From Asterochloris sp. CNOR1 (lineage: Eukaryota; Chlorophyta; Trebouxiophyceae; Trebouxiales; Trebouxiaceae), in NCBI GenBank assembly GCA_963969365.1, contig OZ017747.1, positions 2,914,001 through 2,978,000 on the forward strand: a stretch of DNA of 64,000 nt, in the 5' to 3' direction. The notes beneath the pieces were generated by a model that was given only the letters and a program-made list of their open reading frames with translations, had not been told where the DNA came from and searched no databases. The translations under genes were made by a program, and so were the position numbers. Positions 2,109-53,261 of the stretch are shown in pieces. Within the stretch, counting starts at the first letter, position 1. The number at the start of each line of letters is the position of its first letter.

Positions 2109-5100
2109 TCAAAGACTGACAACTCCACTGTGACCATCCCCGCTGCCAGGCCCTCTATCTAGAAGTGGAGAGCTCTCTGGCTCCCCGTCATCCCGTCTGC
2201 GATTATTTCGCCGACCTGGCTGAGCTCTGCTTTGCTGCCAGTCACTACTTGAAGCAAGATTTCTCTCATGCTGGCCGACAGCCATCTCCAGATCTGAGCT
2301 GGCAGTCTCACGTTCCCTATCTGTGCTGGACACCGTGGGGTCATCTGCAGGGCGAACAGGATTGATGAGTGGTTGAGCACTTTTGTGGAGGGGTTGCAGC
2401 AGAGTCGGAAGAGGGGTAGACTCACATGCCCCATAGGGGATGAAAGGCAGCCCATCGGACTTGACCAGCCTATCTGAGGGGGTGGTCAGGCCCAGATTTG
2501 CTTTCCGCCCCAGCGCAAGCTTGGCATTGGCCTCAGCGATGTCCTTCCTGGTGATCACCCCAATGACCTGCAGTTGAACACAGCAGCAGGCTGCAAGGAC
2601 TTTGCAGTGGTGCAGTGCTGACTGACGGCAATGGGAGACTTCAGATGAAGCAGCAAGGCAAGGCCTGCCAAGCAGATCCCATCCTCTGCAGGGTCAGCTA
2701 CGTCGAGGCGGCACAAATAGGTTTGGCATGGTGCCAGACCACAGCAGGCGTCTTCACACACACCTTGGGGCAGGGTGGCCCAACAAAGAGGTGCCGCAGG
2801 CCCATGGTCCTGAAGAGGCGGTATGTGCGGGAGAGGTTGGCATCTGAGTGCACAACGAAGGGGTTGCGCTGCATGAAGGGTCGCAGGTCTACCTGCACCG
2901 GCCAGGTGCAGGTCAGACAATCAGCATGGGAGCACAGGACCCTTGGACGCCAGGCAGTTTCTGATGCAACCATCTTCAGAAAAGCAGCCAACATGGCTCA
3001 GGCTGGCCGGCACAAAGCTGGAGCAGAGGGTGCGCACACTCCACATTGTGGCCTAGCGCAACTTGCACAGGGGCCAGCAAACATCTGGGGCTGAGGGTGT
3101 GCAACACGCTTACTGTCGATGGATGTGTTGTGCAGCGTGGCTGTACACGCACCTGAAGGTCCATGTCGCTGGGGCTAAGGGTACGCAGCACTGCATCCTG
3201 CTCCTCCTTGGGCCGGGTCTTGATGGGACGCTGCTCAAGCTTCTCCAATAGGGCCAGGCGCTCCTGAAGGAGTCACCATGTCAGATGAGAGACATAGCAA
3301 CTTCGGTGCAACAAATCTGTGCTGATCGCATGCTTCTCTGTGCAAGCCAGGTGCAGCAAGGCCCCAGCGAGCTGGCCATAGCCGATAGCACAGCATGCTC
3401 AGGCATGTGAGGTGCAGTAAGGCATCAGGGCAATCTGCTGCCATGCAGCACTGGAAAATAAGGCTGTTCAGGGAGGTGCTGAGAAGTCCTGGGCAACGAG
3501 AAAGAATCAGCTCAGTGGTGAGGGTACACAGCTGCAAGGCGGTGCTAGACAGTTGCATGGCAGCAGGGCGACTATCCACAGCACAGGCTGCTTGGCAGAT
3601 GCTGACCCTCTGAGTGGAGGGGATGTGGCTGTTCGCTGGTGGCACCTCCCCGCTTGCATCCGAAACAAAGACGCCAATCCTGTGCTGTATGAGCTTGAGA
3701 AGAGTCGACCGCAGGACGACGCCTGCAAGGTATGCAGGGCGTCAGCACATGTCTGTGAAGTTCTGTCGCAGCGATGCACAAGGACAAGGCTTTACTACTT
3801 GGGGGAAACATAGGGAGGTCAACAACCTGTGTTGGACCACCTCCTGCAAGAAGACACTCCTGCAGCTGCAAGACAACCCATAGATGTGTAGCTCACCGTG
3901 CAAGTCAAAGGGCTCTACTGTCTCAAAAGCCCGCTTCACGTCTGGAGTGACTGCGAACGCCTGGTGGCTGCAGCACCGCAGCGTCTCTACCAACTGCTTC
4001 ATCTGCGGGCACGCAGACAAGCCACTGTGTGCAGTAGGCCAGCAGCCAGGCTTGGCAGGCAAAGAGGTAGATGAAGCAGGTGCACTGTGCTATGTTCCTT
4101 CTCAGGAGCCAGTCAAGCTGCACTGCAACCTGCTCAGACTCGACTGTGACTTGTCCTGGTGAAGCGGCTCGCTCAGCATCCATCTCTTTCACAAGGCAGG
4201 GCAGGTGTGGTTATGCACACAAGCAGAGTGCAGCGCAGTGCTGGGCGCAGCCACTCACCTTGACAATGGGCGGCATAGCCACCACGGCCATGGTCATCAG
4301 CTCAGACACTGTGAGCTTGTCAGCAATCATCTTTTGGTGGGAGGATAGAGCAGGCTCTTCCAGCACAGGGGCTCCCCGCATCTTCACATGCGTGTCATCA
4401 ATGCCCACTCCAAACTTGTCACCCACAATCTGCAGAGACCAGCATTGACAATTTCACGAAAGACTCATTTTCCGGAATGAGGCAGCTGTGCACAACTGGC
4501 AAGGCCCCCACCCTCTGGCCTGCATGGCAAACAGCCGAGCACTTCAGCAGCTCAGTGCTGCCCAGTCTTTCAATGCGTGGCAACAGGGCCCCCCATCATT
4601 GGTGTGCTGGCCACCAAGGATCTCTTTGCACTCACCTTGGCAACAAAGACTGTCAACATGATGGGAACGATGAGCTGCAGGGCCCCTGTGGTCTCCATGA
4701 CCATTACTGTGGCCGTCAGCGTCAGTCTGGTGGCCCCGCCCATGAAGGCTGCTGCCCCCACCACCGAGTAGGATGAGAGGCTGACAGGGACGCTGCTGCC
4801 AGCCGCGCGCAGGATGCCCCGCACAGTTTGGCCTGTCATGCGGCCGCCTGCAGGAGCATGGCAGGGCGTGTTGCTGCGGGCCAGACACAGCGTCAGGCAC
4901 AGCGGCACAGGTGCGTGCATCAAGGGGGCCCCGGCGCAGGCAGTACACGGTGTGGAGTGGCAGGCGGCTGAGCCTCCATGCGGCCTGCAAGCCCACCAAT
5001 GATGCCTGTACTGGTTCATGTACAATCTTGTGCTTGTGAGCAGCCGGCAGAGTATGACTGAGGCGGCACGCACACATGAGAGGTGCCTGGCAGGGTGGCG

Positions 5101-8100
5101 GCTCACCGACAGCGCCCACGGCCAGCGCAGGGACAAACATGCCGGTGGAGGCCCCCACGCCATTGGTCCACATCATGAGCAGGAAGCTGAAGACAAACAG
5201 GGCAAACAGGCCACGGAAGTCAAACTGAAAGGAGGGGCGGTCCTCTGGCAGGGGTTCCCCCAGGTGGATGACCAGGCGCAGAGCTTGGCTTAGAGGGGTG
5301 AAGAACAGCTGCATCAGAAAGGGGTTTCAGGGTCAACAAAGCACTGAAGAGGCATCTTAGCATGCCCTGCTGAGTGGTTGAAGAGCAGCTGCACCAGAAG
5401 AGGGCTCTCAGGGTCACTACAGCACTAAAGAGGCATGCTGGCATTCGCTGCTGACTGGCTTGGGTGTGTGAGCACAGCTGCAGCAGGGGGCAGGCCTTCA
5501 GAACTCTAGCGGGTGGGCGCCCGAGATGCAGCTTGCAGGGGGGCAAACAGCAGCCGCATCAGTGGGAGTGGTGGACCCTCACCATGGCCCTGCAGCCATG
5601 CGCCTAGAGAAGCACTGCTGGCTGCCCTGCTGCAGTTGAAGGCACCCGGTCGGTGGTGGCTTCGCACCCCAAGCTCAGCTTGTGCTTGGCAGCGACCGCC
5701 TCAACGTTTGCAAGACTTGTAGGAATCGCCTGCTGGCCCCACAGGTGCAGCTGGAGTCTCAGGGCAGTGCTGCGCTGAGCAAACTGAGGAGCAGGGATGG
5801 ATCCTGACCCACCTGGCCGTAGACACTGTAGGTCCCGTTCTGGCACCACAGCTGGGGAAAGTGCTCGGTGCCACGGGCCTTGAACTGCCCACCGCCAGCA
5901 TAGAACTGTTCATCCGCATCCCCAGCGTCTGAGGGGTCAGTGGCTTCCAGGAAGCGCAGGTCAGCCTGCAGCACGCAGCAGCTGCCACTTAAGGTTCTCC
6001 ATCCTCCTTTCACAACTGTGCTGAGCACACTCAAGGCCTTGCCCACGTCAACTTGCACAGCACCATGCAATAGTGCTAGACACAGAAGCACAAGCTGCAC
6101 TGCTGCCATGCAGGCCTGCCAGCAATGACAGCATATGCTGCAAAGCACCAAGAGGTCTCTGCAGGCTTCCTGATGGTGCTGGAGACACCAGGAAGCCCTG
6201 AAGACAGGCCAGATGCTCAGATGCTGTGCCTCTGCCATCATAGGACCACGACAAGAGCCTTCCGGGGTGCAGTGCAGCACAGGGGCACGCGCTTTTGACG
6301 GGGCGTCACCTTGGAGGGCAGCTCGTGGCAGGGTGAGCCGTAGGCCATCAGGAACCAGATGCCAGATGTGACCAGGACCAGCACTACGACTTCCAGCACT
6401 CGGCGAATGGAGCACCTGCACCACAGCGAAGCTCCTTGCAAGGCTGCCACACGAGATGACAATCTAGGTGGATGCCCATGTCCGAATCAGCAACATGAGT
6501 TCTGGCTGTGAGGGATCAGGACTGCAGGACAATCCAACAGGGACATACCACCTGGCCCACCTGACAGGCTGTACACTTCGGTAAGCACACCAGCAAGACC
6601 CTGCACTGATGCCTCTCCTGACAGGCAGCTTGTGACTGCCCAGAGGGCAGTGCAATAGATGGCGAGCAAGCGTGGACTCCTGACTCTTGCTTACCAGACC
6701 AAATGTGTTGGCGCAGCTGGCTGGTGCCTTACATTTCTGTGGCACAGCGGTGGGCTGTCTCACCTAACGGGCACATATCTGTGGCGCAGCTGGGTGATCT
6801 TGACATTGACTTTGATGAAGGCAGCCCCCATGAGGCCCCCCATGACGCCCATGCCGATGAAGATGGGCACGTCCCAGACATAGTAGAACATACGAGAGCC
6901 GTAGAAGGCCAGGCTGTCTGTATACAGACCAAAGTCGCGGAAGCGCCCAAAGTGGGCTGTCAGGATGGCCCGGGGGTGCTCCTGCAGCAGAAGGGAATGG
7001 GCTTGACAACTCTACTCAGACAGGCATCAGCTGGGGCACCAGCTGCCAGGGTGGCCCAGGAGTGCTCCTGCAGCAGGGGTTGGTGGGGTCAGCAGCTCTA
7101 GTCAGGCAAAGTTCACTTTGTGAGTGATGTGAGAGGCTGGGGGTTGAAGTTGGCAGACGAGCAGGGGCAGGCAGCTCTGATGGGCTCCAGACTATGGGTC
7201 AAGGTAAGAAACCTTGTCAGAGCACCCATCAACTCAGGCGCCTTAGCAGGGTGCAGGAATGGCCTCAACAATTGCGAAATCTCTCTAGGCAGCAGCAATG
7301 AGTGCAGCCAAGCGTGGCCCAGCAGCCCCCATGCCTAGGCAGGCTGCAGGGACACTTACGGCACACTCCACCAGGAAGTGCAGGGTCAGCACGCCAATGC
7401 AGGTGGACAGGAAGCCGCGCCAGAAGATGTTGGTGCTGTAGAAGGAGGCGCCCTCCTCAATGGTGAACAGCAGGCCGCCAATGGGGGCAGCAAAGGCGGT
7501 GGCCACACCTGCAGGTAGCGCGGCACACTTAACAACGCTCAGCATGCCCGAGAACCAGTCTACAGGGAGCCACTGCGCATTGAAGGCAGGTCAAGATGAT
7601 ATGGCTGCTGCACAGATGCCTTAGCATGCATGCCTAGTTCCAGCTGGGACTGCAGCATGCATACTGCATCTGCCAGACAGGTGGACCCCCGAAAGCCCCT
7701 TTCAATGGACTGACCTGCTGCAGTCCCGATAGCGGTAAAGTCGCGGTGGTCTGCATCATTGTGGAAGTACCCGCCTAGCTTGCGGGGTGCCTTGCCAGTG
7801 AACTTCCCCCTCAACAGCTCCCAAAGGGTCCTGCGCAGCGGCCAACCAGCTTGAAGGGATGATTTGTAGCTGAGTAGTTCGGCAGATAGACTGCCTGAGT
7901 GACTGCACCCCTGCCCCTTCAGCAGCATCTCGCTTCCTTGCAGCGAGCTGCTTGAGGTAAATTACAGCAGGCAGCACAGCAGCGCTCACGGCAGTCCCTG
8001 CATCAAGATGGCAGGCACACAGGGGACGACACTCACTGGGAGCCCATGCTGCCAATACCCCCGCCCACGATGCCACCGCCGTGCACAAATGGGCCTTCCT

Positions 8101-9471
8101 TTCCAGCAATGAGGCCTGCCGCAATGGAAAACACCACTCCAGTCAGCTTTGCCACCAGAGTTCTGACCTGCAGGCACCAGGTGCGTGCTTGGAAGCTCCT
8201 GAGGAACAACAGTTGAGTGATTAACAGCGGCAGCTGAGGTGGGGAACAAATGCACCTTGCTGGCTTGCAAAAGCAGCCATGCGGCAGGGAATGGGTAGGG
8301 GGGTAAGAAAGCAAGGTGGAATGGAGAAGAAGGACCTGCAGGTGCGGATTTCTGCAGCTGTAGCATGCATCAGTCTCACCGCCAGCAGGCCCTTGATGTG
8401 AATGCCGTTGAGGTAGGTCTTGATCTCAGGGATGCCGCTGCCAGCTGCCAGGGGCTCCACAAAAGCCACCAGCGAGCCAGCCACGACGGCGTAGGCTACA
8501 CTGATGGACAGAAAGGTGGCAAAGGGAGACCAGAAAGTGCCTGCACGAAGGGGAGCGCAGCATTGTGAGCATACGCAGGCAGTGCATGGCAATACGATTG
8601 GACGGCTTGCTACTCGCTCTGGTGCTCACAACTGCCGCTGTAAAGCTGCTTCCACACACTGCAGCGCAGCTTGCAACATTGTGCTCGTGCATATGGCCGA
8701 TACTCCAAGCAGTCCACAAGCAGTAGCTGGCTGACCAGCCTCTTGCAGGCTACACCCTGTTTCAGTCCAAAGGCATGGTGCCGCAGGGTGACAGCCTCAG
8801 CATATCAAGCCACCAGATCGCAGGCCCAACCTTCAGCATGGCATAGCCTGGGCTGCTCTCGCGGGCATGCAGGTGCAGCATGAGGGCCTCAGCGTCTCAC
8901 CTTTTCTCAGAATCACGTCCACAGTGCTGCTGTACTTGATGTCATTTAGCAGGTTGATGCCCAGGTCAACGAGGAAGCCGATGCAGCCCATGGCCACGCC
9001 TATGGCGCAGGAGATGGCCCACTTCCAGAACTCTGCGAGGGCATAGTCTGACTCGGTCCTGTGCACCTGGAACTCCCTTTCCAGATCATTGTCCTGCAGA
9101 CAGCACAGAGCTTAGGAGTTGCAGTTGCAGTGTCCCATGAGGCCTGGGAGGGTCCATTTGCAGACCTGCAGACTCACTTGAATGCAACTGCAGATGCTGC
9201 CACAAGAGTTGCAGGTCATCCATCTGGAAGCTCATGACAGAGAATGCAATCTGTTAAAAGGCCAGAGTCGTGTGGCGCTCCCATGCCTTTGATGCTGTAA
9301 ACACCCAACAAGACAGCAGGGCCACAAGCCAGACAGCAGTAGGGACAATGCAATGCTTGTCACCATTGGATCAAAGTCCTGCGACTCGAAGCCTGCCATT
9401 CGCTTCAGCCGCAGCAGCGTCTCCCGGCTCTCCTGCAGTACCAGAGGCGGCAGTCTGCTGGGAGCTGGCAT
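2109..9471 (-). CDS. CLC-type chloride channel / Cl-/H+ antiporter with two CBS domains
   Basis: At least 14 exons read from right to left. Family motifs appear in order: GSGIPEIKTYLNG (about 8440), GKEGPFVHGGG (about 8090), IEEGASFY (about 7450) and GASTGMFVPALAVGA (about 5120). The cytosolic CBS pair follows, with pieces near 4435-4256, 4009-3620, 2895-2765 and 2573-2500. GSGIP has Ser at the anion-selectivity position, as in chloride rather than nitrate transporters. The gating Glu in GKEGP and the proton-side Glu in EEGASF are both present, so by family knowledge this is probably an exchanger like CLC-7 or plant CLCs of endomembranes. The long C-terminal tail carries ESSPLL, which fits an acidic dileucine sorting signal. 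The ATG at 9471 (MPAPSRLPPL...) opens the exon before GFESQDFDP. Another ATG at 9751 opens a longer frame that does not splice cleanly. The stop is at 2109-2111. Several introns carry decayed copies of their own splice junctions. Confidence 0.93.
3016..3196 (-). repeat. tandem copies of a CLC donor splice edge
   Basis: The exon end with LRTLSPSDMDLQ and its gtgcgt donor lies near 3156-3196. The downstream intron (lower coordinates) holds a similar copy reading LHTLSP about 84 bp away, around 3087, and a weaker copy about 67 bp further, around 3021. The shared core on the plus strand is GGGGCTRAGGGTRYGCARCAC. Confidence 0.7.
5300..5560 (-). repeat. four tandem copies of a CLC acceptor splice site
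   Basis: The functional exon edge (FFTPLSQALRL, edge at 5308) is followed on the plus strand by three more copies of the junction, with edges at about 5388, 5477 and 5553 (offsets 80, 89 and 76). Each has the form of a minus-strand acceptor ending TGCAG or TGCGG followed by CTG. The first copy is similar over almost its whole 80 bp; the later ones are more decayed. Confidence 0.8.
6960..7090 (-). repeat. duplicated CLC acceptor splice site
   Basis: The exon edge with CTGCAG|GAGCAC at 6981/6982 is repeated at 7067/7068, offset 86 bp. Both copies share TGGCCC, then GTGCTCCTGCAGCAG on the plus strand. Confidence 0.75.
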
Positions 9472-9751
9472 TGGCAAGGAAGCTGTATGGATACAGGGTC
9501 AGCCCTCTTGGCTGCAGGGGATGGACTTCCACCTTCTCAGGCATCCAGGTGCTGTTGGTCTGCGCCATCGGCCAGCTTTGGGTGATGTCACCCACCTCGG
9601 CAGTCTCTGGTGCTCCATGCAACATGGAGGGCACCGACTCCAGTCGCTTTCCACTCTGCCGCAAGCTCTCGACTGAAAACTTCTCCCCAATGCTGGGATC
9701 TGACTCTGACACATCAAGATGGGAGCTGCACGTGCAGCAGGCCAAGGCCAT

Positions 9752-10877: not shown

Positions 10878-11112
10878 CAGCTGGCAGCATGTGCAGCCAG
10901 CAGCCTTTCTGATGCAGCTAGTGGGATGCAAAACATGCAGAGCAGGCTACCCTGGAGACCACAGCTTTGACATCAGCAGCATGTCCTCATGAACATGATG
11001 AATGCAGCTCAAGCTGCACCACTGCTTTCCTGCAGCAATGGCCCCGGCCAAGCAGTACACTGCCTCTTTCAGCTGTGATTGGAGGGGGTTTTGGGCCAGT
11101 CCAGCATGAAGT

Positions 11113-14838: not shown

Positions 14839-15100
14839 GAGTCAGGATGTCGAACGTATTGCATGTCAGGCTGTCCCTGGCTCTGAGAGGGCGGCACTTC
14901 GCTCTTGACCTGTTTGACCCCAGCTGGGATTATGAGTGGCATTTTCGGCTCGTGGCAGCTTTCATGACACACTTGACACGGTCCTCTGGCATGATGAAAC
15001 CATGATTTTGCATGAAATGGTGTCTGTGACACAATGTGGTCTGCATCAAGGCTGCTCCTGCTGAGCACAGCTGTGAATGCACACTACCAAGTCAAGCCAG

Positions 15101-18100
15101 CTACTCATCCCTGCGGGACACGCAGAAGTTGTCGAGGCTGCGTGCCAAGTGGCCATCAGGCTCCAGAATTGTTCTGCTGCGCAGCACCCTGCATACATCG
15201 GCAGGATCGGCCACCTCCTCAGCCATGGCCAGCTCTTCAGGTGCTGCCAGCACAGGGTCGGATTCAGGGCCAGCTGCAGTCTGTTTGAGCGCCAGCGGGG
15301 ATGCCATGCGCGACATGGCCTGCAGGGCAGGTGGCAGGCAAAGTCGTCGTGGCAGGGACAGGGCACAGTGTGATGCAAGCAGGGCAGCTGGGACCCATCA
15401 TATACCTCCAGCAGCTGGACAGCTGGGTTCAGGCAAAGCACCTCTGCAAGAGCAACCATGCTGACTTGCCTGCATGGTGGCTCCTGAGGCGGGCAGGCAG
15501 GCAGGGCCTGAGCAGCTGGAGGGCTGCAGCTGCGAGCCGTCTGCACTGGGGGTGGATGGCCTAGCCAGAGATAGCTCCCCATCCCCTGCTAAGTCAGCCG
15601 GCAGCGACGCCTGGCGCCTGGGACATTTCAAGGCAGCTTGGGCTGCGCAGGGTTCCTGGCCTCGAAAGCCCGCCCTGGGGCGCAGCTTGTAGGGCTGGCA
15701 GGCGGGGCTCTCTGCTTCAGCTGACCCTGGCCGGCTACCGAGAAGGGCGCCCGCCTGGTCTGCAGATCATCACTCCGCTGTGTTGGCAGGCTGCGTATGG
15801 CAGTTGCACTGGGTTCAACAGAAGAAGGCATTGAGGAGTGACAGCTGCACCACGAAGGCTCTGGGTCAGCCTGCTTGTCACAAGCAAAATCTGCTGGCAG
15901 CTGTGTCTGGTAGCTGCTCACAGAACAAAGGACATCCCAGGCAAGGCGGCCCCGGCATACAGGCTCCTGGCCCGTCTGCAGGCCGCAATGTCACAGACCA
16001 AGCCTGCTTGCAGCGCAATGTCTGGCAGCCGCCCAAGGGCATGCACAATCCCTGGTGACATCTGAGGGAACACAGCTGCAGCATATCAGAAGAGTTGCAC
16101 ACGTCCTCACCCTGCTCTGCCTGAGGGGCCCAAGGCGATAACTGAGCTGGCACAGCCATCTTCCTGACGGCCTGCTGCCTGGGCACCTGCGCAGACTCCT
16201 GCAACATGCAAACCGCTGTTGATGCAGCCCAAGTGATGACACACACCTTCAATCGCCTTCAAGCTGGGCAAGCCCCAAGTGTCACGACTGGCAGTGTCTG
16301 GTAGAGGCAGTGCTTTGACTGACGCCGGGCTGTTGCTCTGCCTCAAAATGAGCTCACAAACAAGGCCTGGGCATTGCTCAGGCAAGGCGCCTCAGGCAAG
16401 GCGCCTCAGGCAGCGGGGCTCAACCGGCAACAACAGTGCATCTTTGGACTAGCAAGGCTGGCAGATGCTCAGTCTCACGGTAATCTCACCACCAGGGTGT
16501 GGGCATCAATCAGGCAGGGCGCCTCAGGCAGCAGCGGGGCACCCAGCTCGCTCATTCCGGACCAAGCTGTCAGCATGCCCTCCACAGGGTAGCTGCCCTG
16601 CGGCATGCCAGTCTCGTACGCCCTGGCTGACGGCTGCACAAGCAGGGAGTGGAGTGAGCAGGGCAGTACGGCCACATTGGCATGAAGCCGAATCCATCTG
16701 GCTGGGGTGGCAAGGCCACCTGGGGCAGGCAGGTGCTGCAGTGTGCCCGCAGGCTGCCTCACACAGCAGTGGTGAATGAGGGCCTTCTGCCAAGGGCTGA
16801 TGGCAGCTGCAAGGGCAGGCACTGCAGTGCGACCAGAGAGCCAGAGACATCTCACCAAAGCCTGGGGGCTGTCCAGCATATTGTTCCTGGAGCTCTGGTC
16901 CTCACCAACGCTGTGGGCAGGGGCAGTACTATATAGACTGACCAGGGCAGAGCCTGCCGAGCCTTGCAGGGGGCTGCAGGAGAAGACAGGTCACTTCAGA
17001 CGGACAGTGGCTTTACTGATTGCACTCATCTCAAAGAGGAGCCAAATTGGGTGCACTGGCGCGTCAAGACTCATGAGCACTGCTCCTCAGCACCTGTGGG
17101 TGAAGCCGTACTGCGAGTGACCGGTGGAGAAGGCTACGCTGCCGGCGTCCACAAACTCATCCTGCCTTGCAGCGCAGCGCCCTCCACCCCTGCAGGTAGC
17201 GGTGCACAGGCTTGTCTGCAGTCCAGAAACCAGCAGGGAGCTGCGCGATCCAACATGACCCATGCTGCTCTGCCATGCCTGCTCTGCATCACTGGGCTGC
17301 CACCCACTCCACCCTGGCAGAGTGGAGGGAGGCCACGCAATGGCAAGTGACCCAATGATCGACTCCTGCAGGCGAGACGTGGTTCCCTAACCGCACCGGG
17401 CAGCCGCACTGAGCACAAGTCATAGCGCACTCAAGCAGGTGGCTGTACACTGCTACCAGTGCATGCCCTCACCGGGCTCTCTTGATTCTGGAGGGCTGCG
17501 GGCTATCCTCAGCTGCATGCTTGCCCCTGGCAGCCCTGGGAGGCTTCTGGCGCTTGGGCGGGTCTGCAAAGTCGTCAGCCATGCTGCCAGCAGTGTTTGC
17601 CCTCACCAGCACCTTGGTCATCTGAGGCTCGATGTCGGCATAGGCTGCTGTCACCACCCAGGTGTCTGGAGCGTCAGAAGCCCTGCAGACCAGCAGCTAC
17701 AGCGATGAACAAAGCGAGCAGGTAGATTCAAGCTGCCTGCATGAGCGTGCCACATGCAGCAGTGTGTTTCAGCGCACCCCTTGCATGCGGTCCAGCCCAC
17801 AACACGCACATTGACCAGCGTGCAGCACGAGACTCTTCCTGCACAAGAAAGCTGCATGTACGCAGTCCAGCCCAAAATGCCCAGGCAAGGAGTCCTGCAG
17901 AGATCTTGCACTCAGCGCCGCACCTGACGAAGCGGTCGCTGGTGTACAGGGCATGGCGGATCTGTGACTTCCAGTGTTCATTGTGAGTGATGAGCCGCGA
18001 GCCGCCTGAGCGCTTGTATGCAATTCGCCCACGCTCCTTGCAAGCCTCGTAGATCTGCACGCATGCCATCCAGCAGTCGCAGACCTTGTGTCACCAGCAC

Positions 18101-30275: not shown

Positions 30276-33200
30276 GAGTCACTGATCGAGCGGGGGCCTC
30301 CGTTACAGAGTGATATATGTGCAAAGCAAAGAGGTCCTTGACTGTAAGCTCACAAGTTGGTCAAAGGCAAGCTGGTTGACCGGCCCAATTTTGGTGCTCA
30401 TGCCGTCGCCTCGTGCTGGAAGCACAGGCCTGCAAATGGCAGGAATGGCTGGTCTGAGTTGAGACAGGCCTGCATCGTCATGGGGCCTCAGGTGCAGGTT
30501 GTTTTCGGCCAGAGCGATCCTGATAGTGCAGATTGTGACCCTGACGTGCTTCTGGCAGGTTGCGCAGGCCTCTAGCCCAGTGCCTGTGCACCTGCAAGCT
30601 TCCTCAAGTGTCATGAGGGAATGGCCCTGGGCCAATAATCAGAGTGGGCGCTGCTTGTGTGCAGGGCACTGCTGAGGCACCAAAGGGCCTGGCACCAGTA
30701 GCGACACAGCCCTCTTCACGCAGCAGTTTGCTGCCGTCCTGGCTGAGGCGTAGCCAGCGGGAGCTCGAGGCAGTTGTGGCCCCTCTGCCAGGCACAGAAG
30801 GATTGCTGCCGCAGGAGCTGGGACCCCCGGTTACAGAGGGGGGTTCGCCGACATGGTCAGAAGCCTCTGCTGCGTCTTTTGTGTCAGGGGAGGATTTTGC
30901 AGCCATCCCTGTAGAGACAGCCCCCATCGCAGCCTGCACTGGTACGGCTGAGCGCAGCCTGGCTGCCTCACAGGCCAGTGCAGGCTCTGGAGCTGGCTCC
31001 ACAGGACTGCAGACGGTGCCTGCTGCTGGTGCCAGCAAGCAGCGCCTGCCTTCACAGGCGCACCAGCCAGGCATCAGCATGCGCCTGGGAGGCTGGCTCA
31101 GCGCTGCAGGCAAGCACTGTGGTCAGGGATGCACATGAAGACTCGTCTGCTCTGCTGCTGCTTGTCTCACGCTTTCGGCTTGCACTCTGATCCCTCTGCC
31201 TCTCTTGCATCATGACCAACATCTAGCTGAGCTGCTGCATGCCCATGACTGTAGGACAAACCATGTTTTCAGGCATATGGTGCAGCCTCAGGCCAGGCTG
31301 CTGCTCTGCAGGCTTTGCATTCGGCGGGGCAGTCAGGGGCGGGACCCAGGCCTGGAAGCGTCTGGCTGGCAAGGAGCGGTTGCAGGACTTCCAGGAGACC
31401 AAGGATCGCTTGGAGGCTGAGGCTGCAGGTGCCTGGCCACCTCGCACTGTGTAGCTGGATGTCGAGTGTGGGACGGCAGGCAGGGCGCTGCAGATGCTTG
31501 GTCACCCCGCCCTGCTAGCTGGAGCGGTGCAGTGTGGGTTGCAGGTTGAGGGGGCCCTGAGGCTCCAGAAATCTGCACCAGACTGTGCTTGAAGGGCTGC
31601 CACAGATGCTGCAATGGCATTGTCTGGCATGGAGGCCAAGTGGCATTGTGACCAGACAAACGGCCTGTCGTGATCATCCGACAAGCCCTGCTCGCTTGTT
31701 GGAGTGCTTGCCGCTGCACCCTGCATTCATGGTGAGCCCTCAACCCATAGCTAGCTCAAGCCGAGTGCATTGCCTAGGTTGGTATTTCCAGTGCCCAGAG
31801 TCCCAGTGCTGAATGACGCAGCTCCATTCTGAGTGGTTCGCCATGTGTTGCAGAGGTGCGGGGCCCAGCCAGGGTCGCCGCCCTGCAGCGCTGGTGCCTG
31901 GTCCTCCGCGAGCTGAGCCTGGCCCACAATCCTGCTCTACGCATAGCCGTCCTGCAGCAGCCGACCAGTCCCCACTCCAGCTCCAGTGGGTCTGAGGGTA
32001 GCTGGCAGCAGCTCAGCCTGCACCAGGCTGGGGTGGGGCCACCTCCTGTCGCCCCTGGTGCGAACCAGACTCGCGGCCTGGCGGGCGCACAGGCAGCTGC
32101 AGCGCCCCCAGCAGGTGTGCAGCCTGCTGCGGGGTCGTGGTAAAACACCTGTGTCACTCGGCATCCATGCAGCTCCTGCAGCGCGCCTAGGGGCACAATT
32201 ATGCCGCTGAGTCCGTTCTGAATACTAGCTGCACAGAGACAGATGCTCAGGACGAACCACTGCCTGCATGGCTGCTTCCTTTCTGCTGCTGTCCTCATCA
32301 TCCTGGCATCATGCTGCCCAACAGCAACAGTGTTGTCTTCCCAGTGTTGATCCTGCAGGGGCCCCCCCGTGCTCACCTCTGCCCTGAACCAATGCAGGCA
32401 GCCAGGTGCAGGTCAGCCTTATCTCAGGCCTCAGCTCAGCTGCCGAAGAGGCTGCTATCCCTGGCAGTGACGTGCTGTATGTCGACCTCACCACTCACAG
32501 CGCCGACAGGGAACCCATGACGCTGCGGGAGGTCTTCCTGCGCAGCTTTGTCCTCGAAAATATTATTGTGGGTGAGGCTTCCTCGGTGACACAGAGCTCA
32601 CTGGCCTCCTTGGGCTGTGCACGTACAGACTCAGCCATTTGGTGGCTCCTGCCCATCTTCCTGTTCATAGGGACACTCAGTTGTGGAGTTGTGTGTGAGA
32701 GGGAGGCTTGGTGAGCAAGGTCTGCCTGGCTCGTAGTGGCTCACTGGCCTTCTGCTCCCCCTGGCAACGGCTGGCGCACCTGCCCACAGCCCACAGCAAG
32801 GCTGCTGGTGTTGCTTCCTTGTGTACCATCCTTGCGTGACTTGCCATCTCAGACCCCTCGACGGAGGGGTGGGGGAGGGGGAGGCGCGGGTAGACATGCC
32901 TTTGTTAGTCCCTGACAAGCCTTGTTAGTCCCTGACATACGCATGCATGCCATTTTCAAAGATGCAGCCTGAGGTGCATATCTGTTGTGCCGCAGGCTAC
33001 GTGACAGCCCCACTTTCAGGCCCTGAGGAGGCTGCCCTGCTAACAGAGCTGTTTGGCCTGGCCCTGGGGGGCGACACCGCTCTGCATCGCCGTCTGGTGG
33101 AAGCCCTGCTGGGGCTGGCGGCTGCAGAGGCGCAGTGCCGGGGCGTGGGCACAGCTGGCTCTCTGGGGGACAAGGAGTCACGCCTCAGCAACATCGTGGC

Positions 33201-36200
33201 AGAGGCCATTTGTGGACTCAAACTCATGGTGAGCACGCCCTTTTTGTCAGCTGGCTCCTGGTGGGAGTGCTCGCTGGGCTGGGCTGGGCTGACCGGCGTT
33301 GGAAAGCCCGCTGCCACTTGCGAGATGCACAGCGGCTAGCGCATATCAGTCTGGTCGCAAGCTGCTTTGTCTGGCTGGTCTGCCTGCATTTGTGGGCGGG
33401 TGTGCTATGCCAAGCGGCTCAGAAACATGCACCTTGCCTGCTGTGGAACCTTACATCTGTTGTCCGGTGCTTCAGATGTCAAGGCCGTCTGCCGTCAGCA
33501 TATCTCTCCAGATCGCTGGTCTGCCAAGCATCAGCAGTGATGAATGATGACAAGCTCGTCTGTGCAGGCTGAGGTGGAGATCCTGGATCGCAAGCTGGCT
33601 GTCCTGAAGCAGGAGATGAATGAGCAGGCCGTTGACATTGCGCAGCGACACAAGTTCAACAGCGGGGCAACCGAGCCCACCGGGCAGTCCTCGCCCAGGC
33701 GCCTTGCCTCAGGCCTGGCAGCTACCGCAGAGGCAAGCCGAAATGGCCACATTCTCTGAAAAGCTGCTCTGTCAGCTGGAACAGATGTGCATGCACTCTT
33801 GCTGCTTGCCCATCCCCAGCAAGTCTTCTGACCTGCGTCTGTGCTGCCATTCCTAGCTGCCTAGATCTCCAGGCTCACTGACTACCTGTTGCGCCTTGTA
33901 ACCTGCCAGATTGCTGACTGCCTGAGCCCCTCTTGTTCCGGTACCTGCATCACATGGTGGCCTGGCTGCTGCTTGAGTACTACTGGTGGCCCCATCAGCC
34001 TCTGCCCGCCCCTGCAGGTGTTGCACTTAGGCAAGGGCCTGCATCAGACGGCAGCCTGCATGCAATGCTGATTGCTCAGCACTCTCTGCTCTTGACAGGT
34101 CAGGTACAGGGGCCAGCGCTTGCACCGGGTGCAGGCAATGCTATTGCTTGGGTGCTGCTGCTGACAACACCCCTGCACACAGCGCTGACTGCTTCCCCTT
34201 GCCTGCCCCTGCAGGTCATGCACATGGGCCAGCGCCTGCACCAAATGGCGGCCCTGCGCGCCACGCTGATTGCTGCCCGTGGCGGGCCTCGCTATCGCAA
34301 ATACCTGGAAAGCGCGCGCAGCCAGGCAGGGACACTGACGGCTGCAGTGACGGACCTGGAGGAACGGGTGGCCGTCCTCAAGAGGCAGAAGGCTGACGGG
34401 GAGGCCTTCAGAAGTGAGCACAGGGGTGGCTGGCCTGGCTTTGCTCACTATGAAAGTCAGACTGACTGTCATGACCAAGTCTTGCACAGCCTGAGTGTCT
34501 GCTGGCACTCTGGGGGGCTCGGGTGTGGGGTTGCTGGCGGCTGCGCTGTGCGGGCTTGCGGCTCTGCCCGGCCTTGCATGACGAGACGTCTGCTCTGCTC
34601 CTGCCTTGCGGCAGTTGTGCCTCAAAGCTGCCCTCTGCCCCAGCCCTGCCACAGTGGGATCGCCTGCATTTGTCTAGGCCAGAATGTTGGCCCTGCGTCC
34701 TGCCCTTGTCCTGTACAGGGAATGCGTGGGCAAGGTTTGGGTGAGACTCATGTCGATCTTACCTCTGTTCCTCTGCCCTACCCTGCAGAGCGCAAGCTGG
34801 GGGACATGGCGACAGCAGTTGGGGGTGTGCAGAACGAGATCCTGGAGCTGGAGGGGCAGGAGGCTGTTCTGTTGCAGCAGCTGAGTCACCTGCGGGAGAG
34901 GCTGGACACCGTGCGGGCCAAAAAGGTGGGGGGAAGTGATGCATATGAGCAGCTTGAGAGCTCCGTCAGCACCTCAGGGTTTGAGGCTAAGGGGTGTGAT
35001 GGCGGCGCTGTGATGCTTCGGCTGCAGGACGTGGCATGGATGCGCAAGCTGCTTGACGGGCCTCATCAGGGCAGCCAGTTAAGGGGGCCTGGACACTGTG
35101 CAGGCCACAGAGCTGGGTGGCAGTCAGAGGGCGTATGTAGTGCAGGCAGGCTCTTCATCACTTTGCAGGAGAGCGCGGCGCCACTCTGCTCAGCTGTGGC
35201 GCTGTCGTGCTGGGGTCTGCCACTGTGAGCTCTGCCCTCTGCCCCTGCAGCACATGGCTGCCTCGCTCAGGGCCTGCCAAGGTGGGGCAACCAGATGGCC
35301 TAGGGGCCTTGAACCCAAAGCTTAGAGCTGTGTGAACCGCCTGTCATCTGTTCCAACAGAAGCAGGCTGCAGCTTGACAGCCACCGTTCATAAGGCAGGG
35401 CTCAGATGCATGCATCGGTGCAGCTGCGCAGACCACCCACAGCTGTGCAATGTGCGTGCTGCCCCTGGGCCTGCAGGCTGACAGGCAGACACTGTTGCAA
35501 AGGGGCTCTGCTGCTTGTACCTCTGAAGGCACCAGGGCAGCCTGCCATGACAGGCTCTTGTGACTGGCTCACAGCTGTGCAACATGCATGCTGCCTCTTG
35601 GCCTGCAGGCTGATATGGAGGAGGGGCGCAACGTCTTTGAGGAGGGCAATGCCTTCACCCTGGACGCGCTGCAGCATCAGGCAAGCTACTTGGGCGTCCC
35701 CTCTTGCGCTTCTCATGCATCAAGCTTATGAAGCTGTCTGCACATACCAACTTGTTTCTGGCGCCATGGCGGCCAACGCACAGGGCTGTGGCTGCGGTTT
35801 ACTGTCACGGCCTGCCTGCCCCACATGTCATGCTGAAGCTCTCCTCCTCTGCCTGGTGGACCTCAGCTCCCTGCCTGGCGCATCCTCGGTGGGTCTTGTG
35901 GGAAGTCATACCTGCCTGCCCAGAGCCTTATCTGGCGGAGCTGCTGGTCCAACATTATCTGGCGCTGTCTCAACACGCATCGACCAGACCGATGGCATTG
36001 TTGCTTGCTTCTGCATTGATCCCCTGCCCTGCTGCATCGCAGGTGGACCAGCTGTGGCTGCGCCAGCAGCAGCACCTGGCAGAGGGCGCAGCACTGGCCG
36101 AGTGCCAGTCCTTGATGCAGGAGGCCATGCGGGGCCAGGACCGCCACCAGAAGGCCTTGACAGCCTCAGCGGCTGCTGTCGTGCATGAGGCGGGCTGCGA

Positions 36201-46617: not shown

Positions 46618-48075
46618 ATGGCACGCTCAGCCGTGACGCTGGCGCTGTTCGCCCTGCTGGTCAGTCTCTGCCATGTGGCTGCCCTGCCCCATGCTGCACA
46701 AGTCTGTGGCTCTGGCCACCTGCTCAGGGCACAGCTGAGCCTAGTGGCACAAGCTTGACTGCACATGCCGTCAGCTGACTGGATGCACCCTGCAGGCCAT
46801 GCACTCTGCGGTTGCGCAGAGCCCGCCCCCGCCCCCTCAGGAGGAAGGTGAGGCATCAAGCCTGGCTCCTGTCAAGTCTGCCATTCATATGCTGAGTCAA
46901 TGCCGTCACATCATCCCCTGACATGTGCCGTGCAGACCTCTCAGCCGGTGCCCACGCACCAGGACCTGCAGGGCCAGGTGCGTCTCCCAGTATGAATTCA
47001 GCCAGCAGAACAGGGATGCCATGTTGGACAGGTAGCCCCTTTTGGATGTTGACGCTCAGCACATGACTTGCAGGCGGTTTCCTAGCCTTTGCCCCAGGCG
47101 GCCAGAGTGAGCCTGCCTTCCAGCACTTCTTGCCCCACCCTACATCACGCTGTCTGTCTGGACTGACCAGAGCTCTGTTCTGCAGTCCCACCCCAAAATG
47201 GCACAGGGGGAACAAATGGCACAGGGGGCGCTCTACTGCCCCCTGTAAAGAGTGTCACTGGTGAGAGCCAGCCCAGGACTTGCCTACCAACTACACTGTC
47301 AGGCTTCAGACAGCGCCCACCAGGGCCCCGATGTAGCATTCCATGCCCACCCTGTGCAGCGTGCTGTTGGGCTGCAAGGTTTGGCTGAAGCCTGCCCTGC
47401 TGTTTGTGCTGCAGCCCCCTCCACCACAGTGGCTCCCAGCACCCTTGTGCCGGGCGGCACTCTGGCTGCTGGCACTATCCCTGTGGTCAGCTTCTCCAGC
47501 AGGTTGACAGCCTTTGACGTCAGCACCTTCACAGCTGCCCCTCGGACTGCGGTGAGTGCTGCTGCATCACGACCTACTGTCTGCCTGCTGCACAATTAAT
47601 GGCGCAGGACCGCTGCGTACCTGACAGCTTGATCGCACCTGGCTGCAGTTCATCACCAGCATCCAGCAGGCCAATGCACCTACCCCAACCACAGTCACAA
47701 TCACCAATGTTGTGGCCGGCTCAGTTGTTGTGTCTTCACAAGTGGCCTACCCATCTGGCAACCTGACAGCTGCCGGCGCATTCACCACTGCCCTGGCAAA
47801 CAACCCTTCATCCATCTTCTCTGTCGCCACCTTTGGAGCAACCACTATATCAGGCATTGAGGTCTCCAGCGTGGCAGGTAAGCTGAGCATGACTGCTCAA
47901 GACCCGCCTTTAGAGTCTTGCAAGGAAGATACATTGCAGTGACAGCACACTCACTGTCCCTGCAGCTTCGCCCGCGCCAGCCCCAGCCCCGAGCAGTGCC
48001 ACACTGTCCAGCAAGCTGGGCTTTGGAGCTCTCGTGGCCATTGTGGCAGGGGCAGGCCTCGCCATGGTGCTCTGA
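46618..48075 (+). CDS. secreted, probably GPI-anchored cell-surface protein
   Basis: Seven exons with matching phases. ATG 46618 gives MARSAVTLALFALL, which joins at 46796 to AMHSAVAQSPPPPPQEE and so forms a clean signal peptide (cleavage likely after AVA) and a proline stretch. Then come DLSAGAHAPGPAGP, a Gly/Thr/Asn-rich repeat (NGTGGTNGTGG), STTVAPSTLVPGGTLAA and a folded module starting FITSIQQANAPTPTTVTITN. That module contains VVAGSVVVSSQVAYP and FTTALANNPSSIFSVATFG. The last exon is SPAPAPAPSSA followed by a hydrophobic end (GFGALVAIVAGAGLAMVL-stop), a GPI-type signal. The module resembles domains common in algal extracellular matrix proteins, where a beta strand lists VTITNV..GSVVV (family memory, not a search). 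Wall or surface function is inferred. Confidence 0.8.
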
Positions 48076-48313
48076 GTGTCATCCTGCTTGGGGTGTTGCC
48101 AACAGCTGCGCAAGCTGCTCACCACAGCTCGACATACTAACACTGCTGCTTGCTGTCATGTGAGTTGCATCTGATTTTCTGCTGTGAAGCGCACTGCTCA
48201 GTACCCATCACTCCTGAATTTGCAGAGGTTGTCATCTGAAGCCCAAAAAGGCTCCAGTCCATAGCCCTCATCCATCAAATTATGAAATGATTCAGTGAGG
48301 GGCAGGGACTTGG

Positions 48314-51300
48314 TCAGTTTGCACTGCGATCAAAGCGGGGCATGTCGTAACCCTCCGGCGCCTGTCGATGGGACTTAGAATTGAGATAGGCTTGCAGCCG
48401 TGTGCCAGCAGCATCGACGTTGGCGTCCTGACCCTGCAGCTTGCAGTGACTGTTAGCAATGCCACAAACACAGCAGCATAGCTTGACTGAGCAGAGCCAC
48501 ACCTGAGCAAGGTCTGGCAGGTAGCCACTCTCAATGTACCCCAGCAGTTTGGTGAATTGCCTTCCATACTTCACGGCAAGGCGGTGCCCTGCTGCTTTCA
48601 GGAAAATGTGAAGTGCAGTGGCCACCACCCTGTTGGCAGGGAGGCTGTTGAGCAGCCTGCAGGCAGCAGGTCTGACCTTATTCATGTACAGGAAGCAGGG
48701 CGGGCATGCAAGAGGTCCTGGAAAAGCAAGCTGCCTCATGCAGCAGCCTCAGAACAGCATATCACACAGACACAACCTGCAGGTGAGCTGGATGTTGCCT
48801 GACAGCGCTTTGGACAGAGGCTGCAGCGCTCCCCTCAGCACCACCCCCTGCCTGCAAGCTCACCTGGCGACATACATCCAGGCATGGTCGATGCCATGCG
48901 GGTGGCTCCCGTGGGGCGGCTGCATCACTGTGAAGGCTGCATAGAAGAGGAGGTAGCCCTGCATGCGGCTCAGGTAGCCATCGGTGCTCTCGGGGAGCTC
49001 CTTGGCAGCCTTGCCATGCTTAGGGTCCGGCAGCAGCATCTTGTACTTCATCTGCTGCAGATACAGGGCGTTGGCCCCTGACCTCTCCTCATAGTACTTT
49101 GGGACAGCTAGGGGGCACACCTGCATGTATGTGAACATAGATCGGCTTGCTGCAAACTGCAGATGTGCACAGCGGGGCCGACTGAGGGGCTGCTTGCAGT
49201 GGGCACACATGCAGGCACGCGCACAGCTGCGCTTGCTTGCTGCAGCGCAGCAGGCAGTGCAGCTGCTGCCAGCGTGCCCAATCATCAGTATGTGTGGCTG
49301 TTGGGGTTGCTGTGGCAACAAATGCTGCCAGCAGGTGCACACGTCTCAATGCTGGACGACTTGCTATGGTGGAACAGGCAGGATGCGGGCTGAACAGCTT
49401 GCGGCTTGCCTACCTGGTGCACGTTGGCGACCATGAGGTGGGCCAAGTCAGGATGTTCTGCAGCCACAAGGCTGAGGGTGGCACCGTAGGCAAAGCAGCT
49501 GGTGGGGTTCTGCGAGATCTGCAGCAGGCAGTAACAGGAGGCTGACGGTGACACTATTGACCAGCAGCACCAGCAGGCTGGCCCAATGACCAGCCCAGTG
49601 AGCAGCCCAGCAAGCTGCACCAGTGAGAGATTTTAAGGCATCTGCTCCGGCCGGGGCTGTCCTGGGATGCAGAGCCTCCAGGGTCCAGGATGTTTGATGT
49701 TGAGCAGGGTGAACAGACATTGGCGTTCACAGCAAAGGTAGCGCACCTGAGCCTCACACTGAGACATCATGCGCTTGGCAAGCACCAGGTAGGCGTAGGT
49801 GCGTAGCTCCTGCTGCTGCTGCTGAGCCAGCAGCTTGAGCAGGTCTTTGGCTTTCCTGTCAATCTGCAGGCGTGTGGAAAGATCTGCAAGAGGGAGCTGT
49901 CAACTGCGCTGAGGGGCCAAGGTGAGGGGCAAACAGCATGCAACTTCAGCACAAGTGAAGGGGGATGCAGCAATTTCTCTCAGCAGTGAGCTTGACGTCT
50001 GTGGGGCCCTGACATAGCATATTGCAGTCCGTGCGACAGCCCTGATGCTTGTGGTTGCTGGACATGGCAGGCATGAGGCTGGCACAGGACTGACCTGCTC
50101 CTGCACACTGGTGATCTGGTTCAGCCTCACAGTAACCTCCTGCTCGATCTCCCGGCGCTGCTTGCGCACACCAGGGTCCTTACTCTCCACCAGGGGCTTG
50201 ACAGACTCCTGCAGCACAAGTGCCAGAGACAGCATCAGCCTCCAGCGCGGACAGCTGCCTGTCAGAAGACGGGCAAGGAAAAATGTCCCGCCCAGCAAGC
50301 TACCTGCCTGCCAGCCCCTTGAGATGCTGGTATGCAGGCTCTGGCCCCCCTACTACCCCGCCTTGCTCTGCTACACATTCCACCGTGGAGGGTCAGCACA
50401 GCTGACAGACCTGCAGCGTTTATGCAACAAGCGCTCCAGCCTGGAGGACGCTTGCAGCCTGCCAGCAGCGCCGCCAAGTTGGTTGGCTCTGCCCAGACAA
50501 GCAACTCCTAGCCCTGCTTGTCAGCCGCCATGGCACCCTTGGGGGGTGCAAAACAAGCACACAACAAAAAGAATCTGCCGTGGTGCTGCCCAGCACCTTT
50601 CACTGCCGCCAGCGCATCAACTGCGGTATGCAGCAGGCTTCCAGCAAGCGTCTCTGACTCACCCTGGCCCTGCTGAGCACCTCCCAGGCCTGCGCCTCTG
50701 CAGCGCGTGCACTGTCAGAAATGCGCAGAAGGCTGGCAGCTGTCACCTCCACCCTGCCAGCTGCCGCCGCAGTCCCTGCCATGGTGCCACCGGAGGCCGG
50801 CCCTGCTCCTGAGGGGCCAGCTTGCTGCTGGTTCTGCTCTGGCGATGCTGCTGGCTGCTGCTTCTGCTGCTGCTGTGTCTTCTCTTGGGCGTGCTGTGCA
50901 GCTGCCTCAGCAGCATGCACTGCAGCCTGGGCTTCCTGCTCTCGTTTCTGCTCAGCAGCCTTGTGTCCAGCCTCCTGCTGCAGCCAGGCCAGGCAGTGTG
51001 CTGAGGGCAGTGCTGCAATGTGCAGGTGACACGAGGACACGTAGCCCCGGCACCTCAGGGTGCTGAACAGCAGTGTGGGCAGCAGCCTTGGCCTACCTCC
51101 GGCGCTTGTGCTGAGCAGCTGTGCACCTGGCCCCCTGCAGCAGCCAGGCCAGGCAATGTGTGGCTATGCCCTGAGGGCAGTGCTGCAGATACAGCAACGT
51201 TCAAACCCCCAGCAATTTCAGTGCTGAAGCGTCCAGCGCATCTGGCATCCTCTGCCCGATGCTCCCACTTGTGCCAACCACCCCACTTTCCCCCACACAC

Positions 51301-53261
51301 ACGCCTCCCTTGCTCTGTGTACTCAGCCTCCTGCAGCAGCCAGGCTTGCCACGGGGTGTGACTGTGCTTAGAGCAGATGTTGCCCAGCAGGCCTGGGCTG
51401 CAGCCTTCTGCAGCAGTCGGGCCTAGCACTGTGTGTTGTTTGTCTGAAACAGTGCTGCAGGATACTCTGGCAGATGGGTGCAGAACCTGGGCCCTGTCCA
51501 GCCAGGCTCAGTGCAGCCATTGTCCTGCACCGCGCCTGCAGGAACCAGGTGCTGGCCAGCATTTGACATTCCACCAAAGATTGACATTCCACGCTGTAGC
51601 TGAAGGTGGCAGCCTGAACCAGTGATTTTAAGACAGGACCAGAGCACGATCAGGAATCTGGGCACACCTCCTTCTGCCTACACAGCGCCTCTTCCCTCCT
51701 CTTCACCTCTTCTTCCTGCCGCTTCTGCTCAGCACAAGCACGCTGCAGCGAGACACATGCATGACAATGAGAGCATGTAGCCAGTGCAGTCTTTCGTCAT
51801 CTGCTGCTGCTGGACAGTGTGTGCTGCCACAATGGGGCGAGCATTACAGTGGGGCATGTAAACAGGCGCAGGCCTGCACAACAAGCTGCCAATCCAAAAG
51901 GCTGGCCAATCACTGGCTGCCGCACAGGACAATGATTTGTCATCACATCTGCTTAGGGGCAGTTGCCAATCATGGGATCGTCCTCTTCATTTCAAAACTC
52001 CTGATGGCAACCCAGTAGCAGGCAGCCAGCAATTGAAGGTAACACAAAACCCTGCTCCTCAACATGCATCCTGTTTTCATGCTTATGTTGCATGGGTATG
52101 TTATGTGGGCAAACATGCCCCCAACTGCCTGAGCCAGCCAGCACATACTGATCACAGGCATCATGAAACACACCCCTGCCCATGTGCCTGTGCCAGTGCC
52201 TCTGACTGCCTGCTCCTGCCGTTCACCACATGCTCTCGATGCTTGTGCTTTGTGAGTACACCCTGGCGCCATGCCACTGCCTAGACTGCGCCCTTGGGCT
52301 GCACCTTGCTGCTCAGGCCTCCCGAGTGCACCCGGGGGGGCCAGCATGCCCACTTGCCTGTGCAAGCGCCTCCTCCACTGCCTTCTTCTGCTGCAGCGCC
52401 TGCAGCTTGTTCTCGCTCAGCAGCGCAGCCAGCTTGCGTGCCCGGGACTCCTTCAATGCCTCCAGAGCTGCTGCCTCCTGCTGGGACAGCTCGCCCTGCA
52501 TGCATGACAGAGCAGCTACTGCAGATACGGCTGCCTGAAGCAACCTCTGGACAACATTGCAGGAGATCAGCTTGAGCTCTCCCAGGGGAGGTTGGGCTTG
52601 ACGTTTGAGTCCTTCACAGCCCGGGGAAGCTTGCCCTGGCTGAGTCTTTGGTGTTTCTGCTCGGAGTGAGGGCAGGATTATCTTCTCGTGCCAGCAATAG
52701 CCTTGTCCTGATTGTCTCAAGCGAGGCCCTGTGAAATGGGGTACATGTCACGTTGGGAGCTGGTTTCAACTTGCCTGCTTGTTTGCCAGCCAGCCTTCCA
52801 GGCCAAGCAGCTGCCCCGCCTCTGCAGCATCCAGCTCTGCTCCTTTGAGCTCCAGTTCACACAAGCCCTGCTGGTACTTGAGCTGCACAAGGCATCACAC
52901 CGCCTCAGTAATCCAAGTGAGGTGCACAGGGCTGTATGGCAGGACACGCCAAGCACCGTTGCCTCACCAGAAGGGATTGCCGCAGCTGCATGGTGAGCTG
53001 CAGTGCCGCCTGATGCTGTGGAGAATGTGGCGGCAGCTCATGGAGCCAAGTAAGCTGCAGGTCCCCGGCCTCCTCTTCATCTGATTCTGACAGGCCTGCA
53101 GGAAAGTGGTCTGCGTGACAATGTGCCAGTTGTGCCATCAACAGGAGATCTGATGCCTGCCAGGGCCACCAAGCCGCTGCACAGACTGAGACCACACCTG
53201 TTGGAGCCCTGAAGCACTTGAGCTCGTCCCAAAACTCTGTCTCCTCATCGTCGCTAGACAT
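48314..53261 (-). CDS. GLE1: GLE1-like mRNA export factor
   Basis: Starts at ATG 53261 (MSSDDEETEFWDELKCF). Next are coiled-coil exons: about 52890-52770 (KYQQGLCELELKGAELD), 52500-52357 (SRARKLAALLSENKLQALQQ) and 50977-50663 (Ala/Gln/Glu-rich with poly-Gln). The conserved helical C-terminal domain is spread over 50215-50093 (SVKPLVESKDPGVRKQRREI), 49868-49747, 49530-49425 (NPTSCFAYGATLSLVAAEHP), 49120-48866 (GYLLFYAAFTVMQ, HGIDHAWMYVAR), 48690-48505 (LLNSLPANRVVATALHIFLK) and a last exon ending MPRFDRSAN-stop. The pattern YxxxxTQ..HG..HAW..LARLLN..P...TA.AL..FL matches GLE1, the nuclear-pore protein that, with IP6, activates the DEAD-box helicase DBP5/LOS4 in mRNA export. Some exons between 51000 and 52350 are unresolved, in a region full of repeated splice edges. 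Confidence 0.85.
50960..51440 (-). repeat. four copies of a GLE1 acceptor splice edge
   Basis: The used edge (exon QEAGHKAAEQK, junction 50977/50978) has on the plus strand the core CAGCCAGGCCAGGCAGTGTG at 50981. Copies lie at about 51141, 51337 and 51411 (offsets about 160, 196 and 75). The first copy also repeats the exon side (CTGAGCAGCTGTGCACCTGG beside CTCAGCAGCCTTGTGTCCAG). Confidence 0.78.
51563..51592. repeat. short direct repeat TTGACATTCCAC
   Basis: Two perfect 12-nt copies 18 nt apart inside a GLE1 intron. Confidence 0.85.

Follow-up and report, generated by a model that had tools for sequence, protein, structure and literature searches.

Splice-junction copies in the 64-kb window

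The 64-kb stretch analysed here, which will be referred to as the window, spans positions 2914001-2978000 of contig C2 of the Asterochloris sp. CNOR1 assembly (56.4 Mb, 21 contigs) and carries genes for a CLC protein, GLE1, a coiled-coil protein and a protein that the first-pass annotation called winged-helix. According to that annotation, introns in these four genes hold partly decayed copies of their own splice junctions, and it is these copies and their origin that we describe. Similarity of this kind is clearly present: 22 self-similar segments scored at least 18 at offsets of 20-400 (ungapped, overlaps kept), compared to 0 in each of three dinucleotide shuffles. A Pfam search of three of the 16 window proteins recognised CLC and GLE1 and matched the winged-helix candidate only to DUF4460; the CLC protein aligned with CLC-7 in two long stretches.

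Gene models were generated with our own two-strand, self-trained gene finder, the final set comprising 87 genes and 615 introns and an earlier one 541 introns. The trained consensus was sharp for both donor (cAG/GTGAGc) and acceptor (CTGCAG/G), and the first full run gave a median intron of 231 bp and a median exon of 131 bp. Up to 60 bp on each side of a junction were compared with the junction's own intron, using the introns of other genes as control, by which splice consensus and composition are held constant. This junction test covered introns of at least 80 bp, provided that the flanks were not very short. NAGNAG-type tandem splice sites are alternative sites a few bases apart, and to copies at such spacing from the used site the test is blind. 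A copy was termed junction-spanning when its alignment included 5 bp or more of each side of the junction. Ten introns in the areas named by the first-pass annotation were tested at both ends, yielding five strong results (p ≤ 0.0015) and two weak ones among the 20 tests, the remaining 13 having p ≥ 0.07.

Two of the three CLC introns named for this minus-strand gene gave strong acceptor copies. The modelled acceptor junction of exon 5107-5308 with its adjoining intron (5299-5377) recurs in the intron at 5379-5458, at an offset of 80-81 bp (score 48, p = 0.0005); this acceptor lies outside the stretches aligned to CLC-7. For exon 6764-6981, the acceptor junction (6966-7022), which the CLC-7 alignment crosses with a gap of three residues, is copied at 7052-7108 with an offset of 86 bp (score 27, p = 0.0005). 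The third intron (2893-3152) shows a weak match (p = 0.017) between the end of exon 3153-3263 (3168-3195) and 3017-3043, which stops 15 bp before the donor, so that no splice site lies inside the copy; a nearby repeat (3005-3036 and 3072-3103) scores 18. In the gene termed winged-helix, also on the minus strand, a donor is affected: the modelled junction of exon 16490-16633 (16460-16530) aligns with an intronic copy at 16328-16398 that keeps its GT, at an offset of 132 bp (score 35, p = 0.0015).

Two introns had been named in the coiled-coil gene on the plus strand as well, and one of them was clearly confirmed, the acceptor junction of exon 35609-35731 (35570-35620) being copied at 35438-35488 with its AG kept (offset 132 bp, score 35, p = 0.0005). 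The second case is a real similarity in an uncertain gene model: a 5' exon with an acceptor-like CTGCAG at 34200-34253 resembles the upstream stretch 34003-34056 (score 32), and 34096-34141 resembles 34212-34257, yet the model of this 5' region differed between gene-finder runs. Introns 34414-34788 and 34994-35250 gave p ≥ 0.07 at both ends against other genes' introns.

The most extended case is GLE1, on the minus strand, where region 50908-51436 forms a series at offsets of 160, 196 and 77 bp, interrupted by mini-exons in the gene model. By self-similarity, it starts with the acceptor junction of exon 50663-50977 (50908-51000) and continues with 51068-51160, partly modelled as a 38-bp exon that may be wrong, then 51315-51376 and 51401-51436. 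The last step was strong in the junction test (acceptor 51324-51359 and copy 51401-51436, score 20, p = 0.0005), intron 50978-51096 was weak (p = 0.0495), and intron 51135-51281 gave p ≥ 0.07 at both ends against other genes' introns. The predicted mini-exons 51097-51134 and 51282-51330 overlap members of the series and may be false. A GLE1 donor junction is also copied (boundary 52354; 52347-52372 with its copy at 52177-52202, offset 170). On the plus strand, the used donor junction of exon 31312-31428 (31422-31449) has a copy at 31487-31514, at an offset of 65. Altogether, 11 of the 136 window introns contain a junction-spanning copy, among them introns that the first-pass annotation does not name. 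Close to the window edge, positions 97-132 form a G-rich run of 36 bases.

Junction copies and intron length across the 334-kb sample

To the window we added 270 kb taken from the 18 large contigs, each of about 2-4.5 Mb, giving a full sample of 334 kb in 27 sequences; earlier subsets comprised 254 kb and 294 kb. In the assembly, the chlorophyll-binding family has 31 matches, which points to a photosynthetic eukaryote and agrees with a green alga. Copies in the own intron scoring at least 16 were found for 106 of 1149 junctions, where 6.6 would be expected from the introns of other genes. Donors (55/575, 3.5 expected) and acceptors (51/574, 3.1 expected) are both affected, as the first-pass annotation had stated, and at a score of at least 18 the contrast sharpens to 41 donors (0.8 expected) and 35 acceptors (0.6 expected), in total 76 versus 1.4. 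Of the 106 copies, 70 are junction-spanning, divided equally between donors (34) and acceptors (36) and residing in 67 of the 615 introns. They occur in 24 of the 27 sequences and 16 of the 18 large contigs, which bears out the proposal of a recurring, widespread process. In sequences L010, L014 and L017 the junction test detected no junction-spanning copy, although the ungapped scan did find junction pairs in L017; there, positions 4454-4846 represent a recent duplication, 95% identical at an offset of 226 and 93% at 213, which involves a small exon at both of its ends. The process is local as well, with offsets of 65-370 bp (median 136), a range wider than the 65-200 bp first reported; shorter offsets are largely hidden by the design of the test.

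Introns with a junction copy are longer than those without. Their median length is 381 bp compared to 233.5 bp for introns of at least 80 bp lacking a copy (p = 4.5e-16), and subtracting the offset reduces it to 257 bp, no longer significantly different from 233.5 bp (p = 0.58). The visible offsets add up to 10.2 kb of 161 kb of intron. These lengths fit intron growth via junction duplication, in line with the intron expansion suggested initially.

Intron birth appears to be much rarer. The Rogers-type signature of gain by tandem duplication, in which the sequence around the donor is homologous to that around the acceptor one intron length away, reached a score of at least 14 in two of 541 introns, where none was expected, and seven introns reached 12 (0.82 expected), counting those with full flanks scored. 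Junction copies at large do not show this signature, since only those two introns attain a score of 14. The 89-bp intron L004 8412-8500 has a score of 30 at an offset exactly equal to its length, and judged from its sequence it appears as one clear case of an intron born from tandem duplication. The 78-bp intron L011 9008-9085, in what is presumably a dynein heavy chain gene judging by a sequence motif, begins with sequence similar to the first bases of the following exon (score 23). This case is less certain, since it requires a 6-bp slide and the intron length is divisible by three.

Origin and fate of the duplications

Local duplication is common across gene bodies as a whole. In the 254-kb subset, every 100 offsets gave 105 matches scoring at least 18 in the 60-100 bp range, 37 in the 200-300 bp range and 0.7-0.9 at 2-5 kb. 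The full sample contains 171 nonredundant duplications (score at least 18, offsets 30-400), at least one in each of the 27 sequences, compared to 7 at offsets 2000-2370. By class, they comprise 46 intron/junction, 41 intron-only, 31 exon/intron, 21 exon-only, 11 junction/junction, 8 intergenic and 13 other pairs. The first-pass annotation regarded the junctions themselves as what is copied. This is not supported, as intron-only duplications are nearly as numerous as intron/junction pairs.

The abundance and local offsets of these duplications, the junction copies with their lack of frame preference and their decay, and the greater length of the introns were observed directly, and we consider it likely that behind them stands a mutation process producing small duplications which is filtered by splicing, lengthening introns and occasionally making one. 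A common mutation in this genome would be the in-place duplication of tens to a few hundred bp, and most of those altering the mRNA would be purged by selection. A duplicated donor would be tolerated because the upstream donor stays in use and the second copy becomes intron; across an acceptor, the downstream site would be used and the first copy would become intron. For most genes, we infer which copy is in use. Each event would add the length of its unit to the intron, after which the unused junction copy would decay about neutrally, and in rare cases duplicated exon sequence with AG/GT might become a new intron. As in plants and mammals, the duplications may originate when staggered breaks or paired nicks are repaired by fill-in and end joining; Ku-domain matches are found in the assembly, and the duplications are direct, local, tens to hundreds of bp long and located beside their source.

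In the ribonucleotide reductase R2 gene (L002), the choice of splice site was compared with protein homology. Intron 15058-15711, as read once the predicted mini-exon 15335-15355 is dropped, contains a donor copy at +152 bp, out of frame, that scores 8.6 compared to 7.4 for the used donor. The 296-residue protein that skips the intronic copy, built without this mini-exon, aligns over its full length with mouse R2 (PDB 1h0n) with one gap, and this homology contradicts the predicted 21-bp exon. The alignment supports use of the outer donor copy, without being proof of every exon.

Frame and class composition bear on the proposed filter. Among the offsets of junction-spanning copies multiples of three are not favoured (19 of 70), as expected if the copies are spliced out; nor are they among the four main classes that touch introns (33 of 129), whereas the small exon/junction class has three of four. 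Random placement (294 kb, score at least 20), an expectation that ignores selection and decay, predicts 17.7 intron/junction pairs where 33 were observed, and 13.1 exon/junction pairs, which alter the mRNA, where only 4 were observed. This shortage is the remaining support for a selection filter. In a neutral simulation, duplications were placed at random, those changing the mRNA were dropped, and non-coding bases decayed faster than coding ones. At one setting, 50 intron-only, 40 intron/junction and 28 exon/intron pairs were expected, compared to the 41, 46 and 31 observed (p = 0.26). An untargeted model thus gives roughly the observed mix of classes, and strict targeting of junctions is not needed.

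Several observations weigh against the proposed process of duplication and splicing. The same simulation misfits at two other settings (p = 0.037 and 0.027), and over the full sample intron/junction pairs reach 1.15-1.3 times expectation. An earlier simulation (294 kb, score at least 17, four settings) predicted 51-71 intron-only, 49-53 intron/junction and 13-33 exon/intron pairs, whereas 41, 42 and 40 were observed, intron/junction pairs lying below and exon/intron pairs above the prediction. Junction/junction pairs are in excess (11 versus 0.5-1.3 expected) and intergenic duplications are scarce (8 versus 21-23 simulated); inside intergenic blocks 9 were found where the intron rate predicts 31.2, making them about three times rarer, compared to 53 within the same intron. 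The length contrast is partly mechanical because an intron must exceed the offset in order to hold a copy, and in the earlier set of 541 introns length minus offset was still greater than the length of all introns without a copy (271 versus 222 bp, p = 0.028). The gene models are predictions of our own gene finder, and two of 76 contain an internal stop. The origin in break repair is one that we infer by analogy. Finally, 20 of the 21 exon-only similarities have offsets that keep the frame, 14 of the 21 coming from the repeat-rich sequences L008 and L013. We withdrew this as proof of a frame filter, as the bias recurs in spliced coding sequence when the offsets are far larger (450-1500, score at least 18, 31 of 32 in frame), and we attribute it to codon periodicity and repeat-rich proteins. 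This control lowered our confidence in the proposed process slightly, from high to fairly high.

As a serious but distinctly less probable alternative, gene bodies or splice junctions might be specific targets of duplication, for instance through nicks or R-loops arising from transcription or splicing, with introns as the preferred substrate. The surplus within introns over intergenic blocks favours targeting, as do the 46 intron/junction pairs compared to 35-40 simulated for 334 kb. However, the earlier simulation points in the opposite direction for junctions, and since the two disagree on the sign of the junction excess, targeting is at most a modest extra. The near equality of intron-only and intron/junction duplications and the absence of a bias between donors and acceptors also argue against it. 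Intergenic blocks, moreover, are short (median 425 bp) and include promoters and untranslated regions (UTRs) where selection could purge duplications. The intergenic deficit could reflect such selection, missed by the simulation, or a link between duplication and transcription.

The fate of the copies was followed in the 64 of 70 that still scored at least 12 without the splice motif. GT is kept in 19 of 32 donor copies and AG in 23 of 32 acceptor copies, so that, of the cryptic sites in series postulated at first, the sites exist as sequence. That selection retains the copies for alternative or recursive splicing is improbable. It would agree with the copies that reach the score of the used site (3/32 donors, 6/32 acceptors) and with the acceptor motif, in which 183 of 215 bases are kept (0.851), compared to 0.745 in the intron flank (p = 0.0009) and 0.81 for non-junction TGCAG in duplications. 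On the other hand, constraint on the used site alone would already raise retention above that of the flank. With that site fixed and the copy decaying freely, hand calculation (Jukes-Cantor) from the identity of the flanks predicts retention of 0.859 for acceptors and about 0.83 for donors. The over-conservation of acceptor copies noted at first is what such one-sided decay would give, and we rejected it as a sign of selection. Donor motifs are not kept above the flank (0.743 versus 0.702, p = 0.27), and the lack of frame preference likewise speaks against retention. Acceptor copies look as if they decay neutrally, and donor copies may be lost slightly faster.

Donor and acceptor decoys may be mildly avoided. 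Inside introns, sense counts are below antisense counts for donor-like GTGAGC (58 versus 92) and acceptor-like TGCAGG (238 versus 307), while those of CTGCAGG are almost balanced (103 versus 115), and GTGAGC is low in exons (17 versus a second-order expectation of 53). In 267 of 615 introns the interior contains CTGCAG, the same hexamer as in the acceptor motif. Acceptor copies were rejected as the source of these plentiful motifs, as CTGCAG is equally common in exons, introns and intergenic DNA (2.7-2.9 per kb) and matches the second-order expectation in introns (408 versus 413).

Mobile introns (Introners) inserted beside splice sites are highly improbable as the source of the copies. They are reported mainly in fast-evolving lineages including green algae (PMC9860276), but here none of 188,805 intron pairs between genes shares at least 50% cover at 75% identity or more, and each junction copy resembles its own neighbour, exon bases included. 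Weak, short similarity elsewhere in the sample was seen for 33 of 541 introns. With no near-identical introns dispersed among genes, Introner families were rejected in the sample, and the initial view that no single mobile sequence is responsible was upheld. Chance similarity arising from the shared splice consensus and a biased, CTG/CAG-rich composition is just as improbable: CTGCAG is frequent everywhere and some low-scoring matches would be due to chance, yet the introns of other genes keep consensus and composition and give 1.4 instead of 76 matches at scores of at least 18, which contradicts this explanation at that level. Overall, the interpretation from which we started is partly supported.

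Relation to known intron gain and meaning

Components of the proposed process have been described elsewhere; the comparisons that follow are limited to the accessible portions of the cited papers. Intron gain by local tandem duplication and splice-site choice is reviewed in PMC3443670, and both elements are found here, with L004 8412-8500 bearing the signature, but nearly all of our cases lengthen an existing intron and create none. An intron of the potato RdRp gene arose by duplication across an intron-exon boundary (PMC4974935). There as well, an acceptor junction lies inside the copied segment, which provides splice signals. It concerns one gene and a new intron, whereas the copies in Asterochloris affect 67 of 615 introns and are apparently unused and decaying. 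Work cited in both papers names gene-internal duplications as a source of intron change, the same source as here. In Drosophila, novel intron positions arose via sliding or tandem duplication, five cases lying within open reading frames (PMC2891723). Both systems show intron formed from duplicated exon sequence that carries a proto-splice site, and junction copies in series were not seen in that account.

Short tandem duplications from break repair, of 10-1000 bp, were reported for rice insertions (Vaughn and Bennetzen 2014, according to PMC7407515), and fill-in by Pol alpha-primase/CST leads to short tandem duplications (PMC8355091). The local tandem layout is shared with both and the size class with rice, whereas a consequence for splice junctions was not seen in the available text of either, and in Asterochloris the repair origin is putative. 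Among the titles and abstract openings listed in a literature search, none presents incomplete copies of splice junctions as making introns longer across a genome. Parts of the process have precedents in individual genes and in break repair in plants; the genome-wide form was not found in the literature searched.

Duplication of junctions made harmless by splicing would provide a simple, measurable route to longer introns that does not depend on transposons. As each event leaves a decaying copy beside the used junction, a single genome could show how fast introns grow, what becomes of decoy sites and how likely new introns are. It is a tentative suggestion that duplication tied to transcribed gene bodies is a main engine of intron length in this lineage, with introns growing stepwise, carrying datable fossils and occasionally arising anew. 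If duplications are truly scarcer between genes, this would tie the mutation to transcription.

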